Assembly (NCBI GenBank): GCA_025934475.1 | Contig: JAICXZ010000040.1 | Span: forward strand, 1-11,049 | DNA length: 11,049 nucleotides | DNA from: Mucilaginibacter sp. | Lineage (GTDB): Bacteria; Bacteroidota; Bacteroidia; Sphingobacteriales; Sphingobacteriaceae | Reading direction: 5' to 3' | In this document: positions 3,443 to 11,049 of the stretch, one piece after another | How positions within the stretch are numbered: the stretch's first letter is position 1 | Layout of the letters: each line of letters opens with the position of its first letter | Notes under the pieces: model-generated | What the model saw: the letters and a program-made list of their open reading frames with translations, nothing else | Database searches by the model: none | What the model was told of the DNA's origin: nothing | Translations under genes and position numbers: made by a program

Positions 3443-3470
3443 TCAAGTCGACTTTTGACTCAAGACTTGA
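3443..3470. terminator. Inverted repeat of GACTnnn heptamers between convergent genes
   Basis: TCAAGTC (3443-3449) is the exact reverse complement of GACTTGA (3464-3470). From 3450 to 3470 the sequence is three consecutive 7-mers that start with GACT, the last being GACTTGA. A 10-bp palindrome, AAGTCGACTT (3445-3454), overlaps the left arm. It lies between the stop of poxB and the stop of the MBL hydrolase and runs into the hydrolase C-terminus, so a bidirectional transcription end is plausible. There is no clear T tract. It belongs to the same heptameric family seen at 9017-9090 and 10139-10210. Confidence 0.45.
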
Positions 3471-6488: not shown

Positions 6489-6545
6489 AGCTGAAAGCAG
6501 AAAGACCAAAGCGGAAAGCTGCATAAATTCCTTTCCTCCCCTTTG
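6489..6545 (+). terminator. Period-7 AGCnGAA repeat and imperfect hairpin after hemA
   Basis: Five successive 7-mers (6489-6523) fit a degenerate AGCnGAA unit, for example AGCTGAA, AGCAGAA and AGCGGAA. The array forms an imperfect hairpin with the pyrimidine-rich stretch that follows: GGAAAG (6513-6518) pairs with CTTTCC (6531-6536), and CAAAG (6507-6511) with CTTTG (6541-6545). It starts 4 bp after the hemA stop, so a transcription end or mRNA 3'-end structure is likely. There is no strong T run. Confidence 0.45.
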
Positions 6546-7437: not shown

Positions 7438-9018
7438 TTGAACAGAACACTTATCATAGGTACCCGTGGCAGCGATCTTGCGCTCTGGCAGGCGAATTTT
7501 GTAAAGGATCGGCTGGCCGAGATCGGTATTGGTGCCGAGCTCAAGATCATTAAAACTCAGGGCGATCGTATTCTTAACCTGAGCTTTGACAAACTAGAAG
7601 GCAAAGGCTTTTTTACTAAAGAATTAGAAGAGGAACTGCTGGCTGGCACCATTGACCTTGCTGTTCACTCACATAAAGATTTGCCGACCGAAAATCCACC
7701 CGGGCTGATTATCGCAGCTGTTTCTGAACGCGAAGATCCGTCAGAGTTATTGCTGATCCTGAAGGATTGTGTAGATGTGCGTCAAAAGATGTCGCTGAAA
7801 TATGGTGCACTTGTTGGTACTTCGTCAAATCGGCGTAAGGCGCAATTGCTGGCGTATCGGCCGGACTTGGAAATAAAAGATCTGCGCGGTAATGTGCCTA
7901 CGCGCATTGATAAGTTACGCAGCGAGAAGTATGATGCTATCATGATTGCCAAAGCCGGCGTAAGCAGGCTGAATATAGATCTGAGCCAGTTTCATGTTGA
8001 AGTACTGACTCCGGCCGAACTGATCCCGGCGCCTGCGCAAGGTGTGCTGGCAATTCAGATACGCGAGAATGACCCTGAACTATATAATGCGCTTCAAAGG
8101 CTGCATCACCCCAATGTGGCCGAAGAGTTAAGAGTTGAGCGTACAGTATTGAAGCTATTTGGGGGCGGCTGTCACTTGCCTTTAGGCTGCTACTGCCGTA
8201 AGGATGATGGTCTGTTTCAGGTATTTGCCTCGAAGGCCGACAAGGGCGAGGACTTCCCCGACCGGGCATTCTTACAAGCGCAAACGACCGAGGGGCTCGC
8301 AGAAAAAGTGGTGTCGCTATTTGATAAGAAACGTAAGCTGCCTCAAAGCGTCTTTATTTCGCGCGAGTTATCGGAACAAAGTTATTTCAGGCGGGCGCTG
8401 CAAAAGCATGGTATTCGCGTAGATGCAAGGTCCCTGATACGTACGGTTCCGGTGATTACCAAGTTGTCGCCACATGTGTTGCAGGACGCTGATTGGATAT
8501 TTTTCAGCAGTAAAAATGCAGTTGAATACTTTTTTCAATTAAACCCAGTATTACCAAAGGATGTTAAGTTTGGCGCAGTAGGCGCCGGCTCTGAAGAAAT
8601 GCTCAGGCTCAAAGGTTATTTTACCAGCTTTACGGGCGATGGCATCGATACTGCTGACGTAGCCGCCGAATTTGCAAAGGTCGCCAATGGCAAAAAAGTG
8701 GTGTTCCCGGGTGCTGAAGAGTCGCTAAGAAGTGTACAAAAGGGTATGTCGGCCGATACTAAAATCGTTGATCTTTCTGTTTACGAAACCGTTCTCGAGG
8801 AAAATATAGAAGCAAGTGGCGCCGATGTGCTGGTATTCACAAGTCCGTCAAATGTTGAGGCCTACTTCGCAGATAACCTGCTCGACCCTTGGCAAAAAGT
8901 AGTTGCTATTGGCAAATCTACGGGTAGTAAATTTGACGAGATGGGTAGTAAATACATTTTGCCTTACTCGCCCGATGAAGTGGGGCTTGCTGAGGCCGTA
9001 TTTGGCTGCACAATTTAG
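7438..9018 (+). CDS. hemC: Bifunctional hydroxymethylbilane synthase / uroporphyrinogen-III synthase
   Basis: The 526-residue protein joins two successive heme enzymes. Residues 1 to about 295 are porphobilinogen deaminase: IIGTRGSDLALWQANFV (6-22), IIKTQGDRI, AVHSHKDLPTE with catalytic Asp81, SSNRRKAQLL, LRGNVPTRIDKL, and Cys245 in GGGCHLPLG, the attachment site of the dipyrromethane cofactor. After a basic linker (about 295-302), residues 303-526 show the weakly conserved HemD pattern: FFSSKNAVEYFF (355-366), VYETV (448-452), VFTSPSNVEAYF (466-477) and AIGKSTGS (490-497). The first half condenses four porphobilinogens into hydroxymethylbilane; the second cyclises it to uroporphyrinogen III. 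A normal HemC is about 310 residues, so the fusion is clear. The start is TTG 7438-7440, with the family-like peptide NRTLIIGTRGS directly after it. An inverted-repeat hairpin follows the stop. Confidence 0.93.
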   Translation: MNRTLIIGTRGSDLALWQANFVKDRLAEIGIGAELKIIKTQGDRILNLSFDKLEGKGFFTKELEEELLAGTIDLAVHSHKDLPTENPPGLIIAAVSEREDPSELLLILKDCVDVRQKMSLKYGALVGTSSNRRKAQLLAYRPDLEIKDLRGNVPTRIDKLRSEKYDAIMIAKAGVSRLNIDLSQFHVEVLTPAELIPAPAQGVLAIQIRENDPELYNALQRLHHPNVAEELRVERTVLKLFGGGCHLPLGCYCRKDDGLFQVFASKADKGEDFPDRAFLQAQTTEGLAEKVVSLFDKKRKLPQSVFISRELSEQSYFRRALQKHGIRVDARSLIRTVPVITKLSPHVLQDADWIFFSSKNAVEYFFQLNPVLPKDVKFGAVGAGSEEMLRLKGYFTSFTGDGIDTADVAAEFAKVANGKKVVFPGAEESLRSVQKGMSADTKIVDLSVYETVLEENIEASGADVLVFTSPSNVEAYFADNLLDPWQKVVAIGKSTGSKFDEMGSKYILPYSPDEVGLAEAVFGCTI

Positions 9019-9090
9019 TCCATAGTTCATAGTCAATAGACCATAATTTTTCTTCTCCAGCTATGGACTATGGTCTATCGACTATGAACT
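9017..9090. repeat. Inverted repeat of degenerate 7-bp units; likely bidirectional terminator
   Basis: Four 7-mers of the type AGTCCAT/AGTTCAT fill 9017-9045, and four of the opposite orientation (ATGGACT/ATGAACT type) fill 9063-9090. Bases 9024-9045 pair with 9069-9090 with one mismatch in 22, leaving a 23-nt loop. Alternatively, TAGTCCATAG (9017-9026) pairs exactly with CTATGGACTA (9061-9070). It lies between the hemC-hemD stop and the stop of the reversed lipoprotein relic, so a long hairpin would form in transcripts from both sides. Confidence 0.8.
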
Positions 9091-9100
9091 TAGAAAACCA

Positions 9101-9962
9101 TCAATGCACCTCGTATTTCACCACCAGCCTCGGATGTCGTGACGCCACACTGTAATAGCTTGAGCAGAATATCCTGCTGGTGTACTCAACCTCGCTTTGC
9201 AGCGTCAGTTTAAAGCCGTAATTCTGGTTATTATTCACCATTGCAGCCACAAGATTAGCCACGTTGATGTCCAAATTCAGGAATGGTTGGGTAGTATTTG
9301 GCACCACAACCTGGTTTGCCGTTAGTCCCGCCGATTGGTTGAACCATGTTACTGTTGCCGGATCCCATGCGGTTGCAACCTGCTGCACTACGAAAGAATT
9401 GTCGGTGCCATAGTTGGCGTGAACAAGGTCGCCATTTAGTGGAATAGTGTCAGAGGACATATGCAAATCAGCAGATAAAATGATAGAATTTGCAGGTATG
9501 CTACTCAAATCAAACTTCAACAGGTTGCGTACTGTGACTGCGGTGCCACCAATGGTCCACGCCGCAAGCGGCTCCTCTACGGAAGTTTTGTTAGTAGCGT
9601 CGGCGCCTCCCAGCAAAGTAAGTGGAATTTCGTAGGGGTTATCGGTTGGAGACAGATCAAGTGTAAATATTTTCGGAGGGTTAACCTTCACTCTAACCGT
9701 ATCGGTTGCCGATTGCCCGCTTTTGTCAATAACAAGCAACTGGAATAGATAACTGCCTGCAACAAGACCTTTGGCCTTCGCATTTGGTGAGCTTTCGTTA
9801 ATTATCGTCGCCTCAGCCGGCCCTGATACCTGGCTCCACAGATGAGTCGACTTTTGCTATCGCTTCAACGCCAACAAGGGGTTTTACTTGCGCTTTTTGG
9901 CAGCTGTAGACCATAAATAGCGAAAGGATAGCTACTATAAGGTTTAGCGATTTGGTTTTCAT
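9101..9962 (-). pseudogene. Lipoprotein with PKD-like and DNRLRE domains, disrupted by deletion/frameshift
   Basis: The minus strand starts at ATG 9960-9962 with a lipoprotein signal peptide (LIVAILSLFMVYSC, Cys21 as lipidation site) and runs to GVEAIAKVDSS before a frame change leads to a TGA at 9811-9813. Another frame, open from about 9855, continues with the second half of a PKD-like domain (LWSQVSGPAEATI, then GLVAGSYLFQLLVIDKSG, ATDTVRVKV) and a DNRLRE-type C-terminal domain (VRNLLKFDLSSIPANSIILSA, VATAWDPATVTWFNQ, RHPRLVVKYEVH) ending with TGA at 9101-9103. About the first 25-30 residues expected before LWSQVSGP in this fold are missing, so an out-of-frame deletion near 9835-9860 is the simplest explanation. 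The only nominal start of the larger piece is an internal TTG at 9739. The intact protein would have been a surface-exported carbohydrate-binding-like lipoprotein; its ligand is unknown. Confidence 0.72.
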
Positions 9963-10138: not shown

Positions 10139-10210
10139 AGTCCAGAGTCCATGGTCGACAGGCTATAGAATTTGTGATAACCATGGACTATTGACCATCG
10201 TCTATCGACT
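10139..10210 (+). repeat. Heptamer inverted repeat directly upstream of hemB
   Basis: Four 7-mers (10139-10166, such as AGTCCAG and AGTCCAT) face four inverted ones (10183-10210, such as ATGGACT and ATCGACT) across a 16-nt spacer. CCATGG occurs in both arms (10150-10155 and 10182-10187). Pairing is less perfect than at 9017-9090, but unit, period and layout are the same. The right arm ends only 7 nt (AAAAAAG) before the hemB ATG. Confidence 0.7.
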
Positions 10211-10217
10211 AAAAAAG

Positions 10218-11049
10218 ATGCTGCAAAGACCAAGAAGAAACCGCAAAAGCGAAGTGATCCGCCAGATGGTGCAGGAGACACACGTGAGCGCTGCCAATCT
10301 TATATTCCCGCTGTTTATCATTGAAGGGAACAATCAAAAAAGTGAAGTTGCTTCCATGCCGGGTATTTATCGGCATTCAGTTGATAATTTACTCCGCGAA
10401 GTTGAAAGCTGCCTGAAGCTGGGGCTGAAAGCTTTTGATCTCTTTCCTAACATTGAAGAATCGATCAAGGATAAATATGCTACGGAGAGCTATCGTGGCG
10501 GCAGTCTTTACCTGCGTGCTATTGCCGAGGTGAAAAAGAATTTTCCGGAAGCCTGCGTGATTACCGATGTAGCTATGGACCCCTATAGCAGCGACGGTCA
10601 CGATGGTATCGTTGAAAACGGCGAAATACTGAACGACGAGACGCTGGAGGTTTTGGGTAAGATGGCATTGGCGCATGCACAATCTGGAGCAGATATTATC
10701 GCTCCCTCAGATATGATGGATGGCCGCGTTGGTTACATCAGAAATGTATTGGATGACAACGGATTTACGAATGTTTCTATCATGTCGTACACTGCCAAAT
10801 ATGCCAGCGCATTTTACGGACCGTTTCGTGATGCATTAAATTCAGCGCCAAAATTTGGTGATAAAAAAACCTATCAAATGAACCCGGCCAACCAGCGCGA
10901 GGCTTTGATAGAAGCCGACCTCGATGAGGCTGAAGGTGCAGATTTTCTGATGGTAAAGCCGGCACTTCCTTACCTCGACGTAATAAAGTTGTTAAAAGAC
11001 AATACCGAATTGCCTATCGCCGCTTATAATGTGAGCGGTGAATATGCTA
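10218..11049 (+). CDS. hemB: Delta-aminolevulinic acid dehydratase (porphobilinogen synthase), 3' end outside the window
   Basis: The first 277 codons of hemB are present, starting with ATG 10218-10220 and open to the window end; the family is about 325 residues long, so about 50 residues are missing. HemB condenses two 5-aminolevulinates to porphobilinogen. Both Schiff-base lysines are present: Lys194 in SYTAKYASAFYGP and Lys247 in LMVKPALPYLD. The metal-site segment at 117-130 reads DVAMDPYSSDGHDG, with Ala, Asp and Asp in place of the three Cys of zinc-dependent enzymes, so this is the Mg-type, zinc-independent class as in Pseudomonas. The start fits the family N-terminus (RPRRNR). An inverted repeat ends just before the start codon. 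Confidence 0.95.
   Translation, partial: MLQRPRRNRKSEVIRQMVQETHVSAANLIFPLFIIEGNNQKSEVASMPGIYRHSVDNLLREVESCLKLGLKAFDLFPNIEESIKDKYATESYRGGSLYLRAIAEVKKNFPEACVITDVAMDPYSSDGHDGIVENGEILNDETLEVLGKMALAHAQSGADIIAPSDMMDGRVGYIRNVLDDNGFTNVSIMSYTAKYASAFYGPFRDALNSAPKFGDKKTYQMNPANQREALIEADLDEAEGADFLMVKPALPYLDVIKLLKDNTELPIAAYNVSGEYA

Follow-up and report, generated by a model that had tools for sequence, protein, structure and literature searches.

Inverted heptad arrays in Mucilaginibacter gene spacers and the turnover of repeat types between hemC and hemB

Two inverted arrays of degenerate 7-bp units lie between hemC and hemB in the DNA analyzed here, and they raise the question of whether such arrays act as hairpins at the RNA level or exist as hairpin elements at the DNA level. 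A preliminary description of the window (the whole stretch of 11,049 nucleotides) had proposed a genome-wide family serving as bidirectional terminators or mRNA 3'-end stabilizers, or a REP-like mobile element. We find that the arrays are a real finding and a larger one than that description had it. The window belongs to a draft genome of 4.3 Mb in 852 contigs (completeness 70), and the closest named relatives of its hemC are from Mucilaginibacter.

Heptad arrays in the window, the genome and the genus

The first array (9017..9090) consists of a left arm on the + strand with the four heptads AGTCCAT, AGTTCAT, AGTCAAT, and AGACCAT (9017..9044), a pyrimidine-rich centre of 18 nt (9045..9062), and a right arm on the - strand that reads ATGGACT, ATGGTCT, ATCGACT, and ATGAACT (9063..9090). 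As described previously, four units face four inverted units and form a 22-bp stem with one mismatch; 9024-9045 pairs with 9069-9090, an offset of one unit. The predicted RNA fold of this array has an energy of -30.9 kcal/mol on the + strand (z -7.9) and -38.5 kcal/mol on the - strand (z -10.3), and 0/200 shuffles were as good in either case. The second array (10139..10210) repeats the unit, period, and layout of the first, with the left arm AGTCCAG, AGTCCAT, GGTCGAC, and AGGCTAT on the + strand (10139..10166) and a right arm on the - strand (10183..10210) that ends 7 nt upstream of the hemB ATG (10218). Its pairing is weak, however, with a longest ungapped stem of 10 bp in a scan of the window and a fold z of -2.9. 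The third array (3443..3470) is located at convergent gene ends and had been viewed as a shorter GACTNNN version. The units are present, but the array is mostly one-sided, with one TCAAGTC facing GACTTTT, GACTCAA, and GACTTGA, and its fold has a z of -1.9 on the + strand and -2.9 on the - strand.

The placement of all three arrays between genes, as first reported, is nearly right. The hemC stop codon TAG (9016-9018) supplies the opening AG of the left arm of the first array, and the third array overlaps the 3' end (3460) of a minus-strand ORF. Absent from the earlier list of repeats was a decayed GAAAGC-type heptad block directly after hemA (6489..6521), for which, by eye, we read a decayed opposite arm extending to about 6548. 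The window yielded no Rfam match above the gathering score.

Upstream of the first array is a hemC-hemD fusion gene (Porphobil_deam and HEM4 domains; 7438..9018, + strand), and hemB (ALAD; 10218..11049, + strand) continues past the window edge. Between hemC and hemB lies an ORF with a CBM96 domain on the - strand (9101..9739), the N-terminal part of which may extend to about 9962 in another frame, judged by eye. The second array is located in the hemB leader, downstream of a sequence that is promoter-like when judged by the Bacteroidota promoter motif. A reverse-strand ORF at the hemC-hemB position, compared by position only, is also found in L093, L094, L096, L109, L110, and other loci.

Further copies were found in the window's own genome (G000), in agreement with the proposed genome-wide family. 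Two AGTCNAT-type units with at most one mismatch gave 121 matches compared with 27 for the reversed pattern, and three units with at most three mismatches gave 136 compared with 4, where one array can give several matches. Searching the genome with the first array returned 55 further matches at E values up to 10, a number that includes both strands, several matches per array, and the array's own two arms; the best other copy matched at 79% over most of the array. In the complete genome from which L104 was taken, four more copies of its octad element align almost end to end at 73-77%, and the C-rich element of L097 likewise has copies at 72-77%. The unit types in the window's genome are AGTCNAT, AGTCTTR, and AGTCRGA, and relatives carry GAAAGCN, TCAAGAN, TCAAAAN, AACTGNN, ACTCACN, GATTAGN, and others. 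A GACCAT unit is present in 36 of 42 AGTC arrays, in both arms in 17 and innermost on at least one arm in 28. The small palindromes GACCATGGTC and GGTCCATGGACC occur inside AGTC arms, and two viral contigs (L390 and L391) matched the AGTC hairpin pattern.

A period of 7 bp is in strong excess across 80 related loci. In these hemC loci (1.50 Mb), we detected 188 imperfect tandem stretches at lag 7 and 142 at its multiple, lag 14, compared with 2-34 at lags 4-6 and 8-13. Samples of ~185 kb from genomes G001 and G072 contained 12 and 16 lag-7 stretches, respectively, and 1 each after dinucleotide shuffling, with lags 8 and 9 also raised in G072 (11 and 9). We then surveyed the class with a single piece of 20 kb or less from each of 20 families out of 47 others, partly picked for pattern matches, of which 18 were readable. 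A lag-7 stretch was present in 9 of the 18 families (24 stretches in total), and lags 5, 6, 8, 9, and 10 gave 0, 4, 7, 8, and 0. These counts make one ask why a period of 7 bp prevails over other short periods.

We counted heptad sites by the orientation of the flanking genes. Gene calls followed a plain longest-ORF criterion, and the counts are therefore approximate. Sites occurred in 19/90 convergent, 34/293 co-directional, and 6/92 divergent gaps of G072; in 5/64, 12/263, and 4/65 of G001; and in 10/181, 132/1001, and 11/196 of the 80 hem loci. Within co-directional gaps, 28/35 sites in G072 were closer to the stop codon of the upstream gene (median distance 1 nt), as were 6/14 in G001 (median 46 nt) and 88/137 in the hem loci (median 4 nt). 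Called ORFs contained 11/72, 2/27, and 28/191 of the sites in G072, G001, and the hem loci, respectively. This count by intergenic class, suggested in the preliminary description, gave a divided answer. G072 avoids divergent gaps (P = 0.005 for convergent compared with divergent), but the difference between non-divergent and divergent gaps was not significant when G001 and G072 were pooled (P = 0.22). The hem loci lacked a convergent excess over divergent gaps, although their co-directional gaps were richer in sites.

Repeat types in the hemC-hemB gap and in sister spacers

In Mucilaginibacter, the hemC-hemB gap is usually occupied from stop codon to start codon by an inverted repeat, and the type of repeat differs among species. 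We labeled the repeats by hand in 53 of 80 loci, leaving uncounted the other 27, in which the next gene was another one or the locus was an outgroup, cut, or ambiguous. Type A (AGTCNAT or AGTTCAT heptads) occupied 20 of the 53 slots, type B (GTTCATTN octads) 6, type C1 (CCCCTAAAGGGG) 8, type C2 (CCTCCCTACCGGGGAGG) 11, and type D (GTCATTN types) 5; no element was present in 3. The repeats were incomplete in L132 and L133, which have a one-sided block, and in L142, which has one half. An automatic hairpin score of at least 10 was reached in 46/66 hemC-hemB gaps, outgroups included, and a score of at least 12 in 39/66 compared with 0/66 for the best of five shuffles. Nine other gaps reached a score of at least 10 in anywhere from 0/63 to 48/72 cases. 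Unlike types gave hemC-hemB spacers of similar length (medians 81-108.5).

The hemC-hemB gap spans only 1-12 bases in 4 of the 10 loci outside Mucilaginibacter (L161, L162, L163, and L165) and about 50-80 bases in L158, L159, L160, and L167, these eight being the outgroup loci with a resolved gap. One neighboring gap was shorter than 40 bp in 17/61 loci, outgroups included. With some neighboring gaps this short in many species, occupancy of a gap is not a general requirement.

To follow the types across species, we used a HemC plus HemB tree of the 53 species, built by a quick search in which 16 of the 50 inner branches stayed open. On this tree, the six labels required 27 changes compared with a mean of 29.6 for shuffled labels, and 15/200 shuffles were as low. 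Type C2 was clustered (7 changes compared with 10.1; as low in 5/500). Types A, B, and D have a common GTYCAT-like core and may represent one family rather than separate families; with these merged, 50 rows gave 14 changes compared with 17.5 (as low in 4/200). Three pairs of loci from close species, L099/L100, L104/L105, and L136/L137, carry unlike repeat types between the same hemC end and the same hemB start, and their surrounding blocks are identical at 94.0%, 89.7%, and 89.8%, respectively. In the spacers of L099, L104 (gap between hemB and the next gene), L137, L122, and L146, a CGTCATTGCGAGG-type palindrome lies inside or beside another element. These nested palindromes are possible intermediates of type swaps.

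We next compared spacers between 18 hand-picked close pairs of hem loci, in which some species appear twice and several pairs were picked for unlike hemC-hemB types. Co-directional spacers of 30-400 bp in which one or both partners had a repeat were classified by local alignment against shuffles. The 59 such spacers comprised 31 homologous, 24 unrelated, and 3 unclear cases and a single gain or loss; leaving out the hemC-hemB gap, the numbers were 23, 17, 1, and 1. Both partners had a repeat score of at least 11 in 14 of the 24 unrelated spacers, and one partner was weak or gapped in 10, and spacers that are unrelated by alignment may still hold elements of one family. Spacers without a repeat comprised 18 homologous, 9 unrelated, 7 unclear, and 3 gain/loss cases. 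All 12 divergent spacers were homologous, and the convergent ones comprised 3 homologous and 1 gain/loss case. An earlier split by a global identity cut of 0.62 (29/29/1) misassigned spacers in both directions, and the shuffle-based split was preferred. The surplus of unrelated spacers over gain or loss is the least explained and most interesting part of these results.

Arm pairing and RNA-level signals

The preliminary description had noted that units vary within a block while the two arms stay nearly complementary, and had taken this to suggest selection or copying for pairing. Three tests revealed neither covariation nor special matching between the arms. For the 16 AGTC arrays of the window's genome, arms scored lower with their own partners (mean 12.1) than with swapped partners (14.3); the scores were 14.31 and 14.34 for 26 arrays of other genomes and 13.45 and 14.17 for all 42. 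The own partner of the first window array was unsurpassed among the 16, and that of the second array was the worst. We rejected the notion that own arms pair worse, as this effect was strong in G000 (P = 0.0007, 16 arrays) and absent in the 26 others (P = 0.50).

We aligned 13 of the 20 type-A hemC-hemB arrays, in which 82% of cells were paired, far above slid versions of the alignment. The covariation score was 0.087 compared with 0.078 for shuffles (76/500 shuffles), with no covariation beyond column shuffles. Only 4 pairs had changed on both sides, compared with 5.4 in shuffles, and two columns remained mismatched, in 9/13 and 10/13 arrays. The search for compensatory arm changes that had been recommended thus found none beyond shuffles in these same-slot arrays. 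With both the comparison of own and swapped arms and the covariation test null, selection for pairing was discarded as a general property, and a general rule of complement-type mismatches did not hold once all types were considered. The arms are alike because both share one unit, not because each pair has been kept matched.

We then compared G.U and A.C mismatches on the sense strand; orthologues are non-independent in both the test set and the control. The 83 heptad/octad hairpins of the hem slots contained 89 G.U and 88 A.C, and the 106 other hem-slot hairpins contained 138 and 154. The control, 74 terminator-like hairpins with a U-tract in these genomes, was biased toward G.U (43 compared with 17, P = 0.0011). 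Among other co-directional hairpins, those of G001 leaned toward G.U (35 compared with 16, P = 0.011), and those of G072 had 29 G.U compared with 39 A.C. A TTTT followed the hairpin in 1/73 heptad/octad hairpins of hem slots and 2/83 others. The promoter motif TAnnTTTG was found in 1/49 element-bearing hemC-hemB spacers. With TTTT and this motif both nearly absent, transcription most likely reaches hemB by reading through the repeat.

Terminator and RNA-hairpin roles therefore lack support from the substitution test. The proposed bidirectional terminators are at odds with both the rarity of U-tracts and the equality of G.U and A.C, unlike the terminator-like control. The proposed role in stabilizing mRNA 3' ends is unsupported, given the same equality and the lack of arm covariation. 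The comparison of G.U with A.C offers a simple way to separate DNA-level hairpins from working RNA hairpins. If spacers refill repeatedly as species split, hairpin shape alone cannot mark terminators or stabilizers.

Readings of the arrays and comparison with known systems

We consider the chances about even that the array belongs to a pool of small, REPIN-like inverted-repeat DNA elements, dispersed and non-autonomous, that turn over in spacers. An element would have two arms of ~28 nt, mostly of four degenerate heptads, around a centre of ~25 nt, and the wider pool, alike in build, would include other heptad/octad types, C-rich palindromes, and CGTC-type palindromes. Elements would land in Mucilaginibacter gene spacers and persist where no gene is broken. 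Residents would then decay, with no sign of selection for RNA pairing, and be displaced by other elements. Arm pairing, which stems from the common unit, would belong to the element in its DNA form rather than to the host gap. Copying at the DNA level, possibly with a single-stranded hairpin as intermediate, may account for the spread, and an old copy may be replaced when another element inserts into a spacer that is already open and the old copy is then lost. In favor of this reading are the dispersed copies within single genomes, the changes of type on the tree, the unlike repeats of close species and of sister spacers, the nested elements, the very short gaps of four outgroup loci, the equality of G.U and A.C, and arms that match no better than swapped ones and do not covary. 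Several observations count against it. No transposase could be tied to the arrays. The 24 unrelated spacers compared with 1 gain or loss are hard to obtain by independent insertion and deletion, and C2 is clustered, so that the distribution of repeat types over the tree is not entirely random. Centres also differ among AGTC arrays, whereas simple copying predicts that they should be alike unless centres diverge fast. We regard as unlikely an unrecognized process in Bacteroidota that swaps whole inverted-repeat cassettes from stop to start codon, never via an empty gap. If such cassette exchange were true, gene spacers would form a rapidly renewed stock of hairpin DNA with interchangeable members.

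There is a minor chance that the gap needs any hairpin, in which case the repeats would be interchangeable intercistronic RNA elements, with selection filling the slot and leaving the type free; RNase III processing, exonuclease protection, or translation insulation are the proposed roles. An element was labeled in 50/53 hemC-hemB slots (L132, L133, and L142 on one side only), and the rarity of gain or loss among sister spacers, the similar spacer lengths, the G072 arrays that begin near the stop codon, and the strong predicted fold of the first window array all fit such a need. However, the sense strand lacks the G.U bias that the control displays, arm covariation is absent, and arrays in G001 lie farther from the stop codon. 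Hairpins are also missing from a share of the hemC-hemB gaps (score of at least 10 in 46/66) and vary widely across the nine other gaps, and short gaps occur both at a neighboring position in 17/61 loci and at hemC-hemB in 4/10 outgroup loci. The earlier proposal of bidirectional intrinsic terminators is extremely unlikely. The convergent excess in G072 and the stable fold of the first array favor it, but TTTT follows the right arm in only 1/73 hairpins, 48/49 element-bearing hemC-hemB spacers lack the promoter motif, a G.U excess is absent, the second window array sits in the hemB leader, and neither G001 nor the hem loci have a clear convergent excess.

Local mutation alone, in which slippage generates 7-bp tandems and template switching at a hairpin generates the inverted copy on the spot, is clearly improbable. 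It would account for the period-7 excess, the degenerate units, the unlike centres, and one-sided arrays such as 3443-3470, and types A, B, and D with their common core could intergrade. However, the same small set of unit types is found at many places in a single genome, octad and C-rich copies are alike over nearly their whole length, and template switching predicts that own arms match better than swapped arms, which is not so. It is very unlikely that species trade spacer alleles by homologous recombination via the flanking genes. The pairs inspected have clean junctions on both sides, at the end of hemC and at the start of hemB, and synonymous identity over the first 20 codons of hemB (70 loci) is 0.66 compared with a gene mean of 0.505; the rise at gene starts is smaller in some other genes of the row and absent in others. 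The arms of the 13 aligned slot arrays are slightly more alike (0.87 left and 0.83 right) than arms elsewhere (0.79), and part of them may therefore be inherited in place. Against exchange, species pairs with like types had no extra synonymous identity over 20 codons on each side compared with unlike-type pairs (P = 0.66), although very short tracts could escape this comparison, and the hemC end had no rise (0.46 compared with 0.489). Arm identity among 19 type-A slots (0.62-0.65 for pairs below 0.6 synonymous identity) equaled that to arrays elsewhere (0.62-0.64). Recombination through the flanks was rejected on the flanking synonymous sites, which carry no signal. The placement counts at the hem loci and the 19-species arm comparison slightly lowered our odds for terminators and for recombination and left those of the other readings as they were.

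Searches of an open-access library, among the papers listed, gave no account of inverted heptad arrays in Sphingobacteriaceae or of one repeat type replacing another between genes, which does not prove that none exists. REPINs are short inverted repeats that occur in many copies outside genes, with two arms, a variable centre, and a length of ~100 bp. The arrays resemble REP, BIME, and REPIN sequences in being short inverted repeats in many copies, mostly outside genes, with two arms and a variable centre and a similar length, and to this extent the earlier suggestion of a REP-like mobile element holds. Unlike REP/REPIN sequences with a RAYT (TnpA-REP), however, their arms are degenerate heptads, and membership in the REP-RAYT system fails on the transposase test. 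No AGTC array was found within 250 bp of 19 Y1 genes with a readable frame (0/19), drawn from 20 places with one weak Y1 match per genome; "RAYT-like" is a label given to these genes in this analysis. Lag-7 blocks of other kinds were present at two Y1 genes, L382 (A-rich) and L389 (GAAAGC type), and several of the examined Y1 genes have palindromes of their own. Across 25 genomes of the genus, AGTC counts did not track Y1 counts (Spearman -0.07, P = 0.73), and among Y1-free genomes, G023 has 136 AGTC matches and G002 only 4. A question that follows is which machinery copies such elements where a genome has no evident transposase for them.

Like intrinsic terminators, the arrays are hairpins after stop codons; unlike them, they lack both the U-tract and the RNA-level substitution bias. 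CGTC-tagged palindromic repeats have been reported from Bacteroidetes (PMC3733652). One of the interchangeable spacer elements described here is similarly a CGTC...GACG palindrome, assigned by tag and eye only, whereas the AGTC arrays differ in sequence. The gaps of a Nostoc operon are reported to contain heptad-like repeats and palindromes (PMC2408588). Look-alikes of the TTGTCAG-like repeats and of the agacgcga...tcgcgtct palindrome in Table 3 of that source occur in spacers of Mucilaginibacter and relatives (L156, L091, and L135). The resemblance hints at element families common to different phyla.

Heptamer tandem repeats go by the name STRR. In the accessible part of PMC4679880, they are described outside genes in cyanobacteria, Beggiatoaceae, and Xanthomonas (TAACTGA), and the TAACTGA repeats are direct, with one inverted case among 170 sets. 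The arrays described here likewise consist of degenerate 7-bp tandem units outside genes. Unlike the TAACTGA-type direct repeats, as far as that part of the source portrays them, the blocks here face each other, many unit types occur per genome, and the types swap at a single site.
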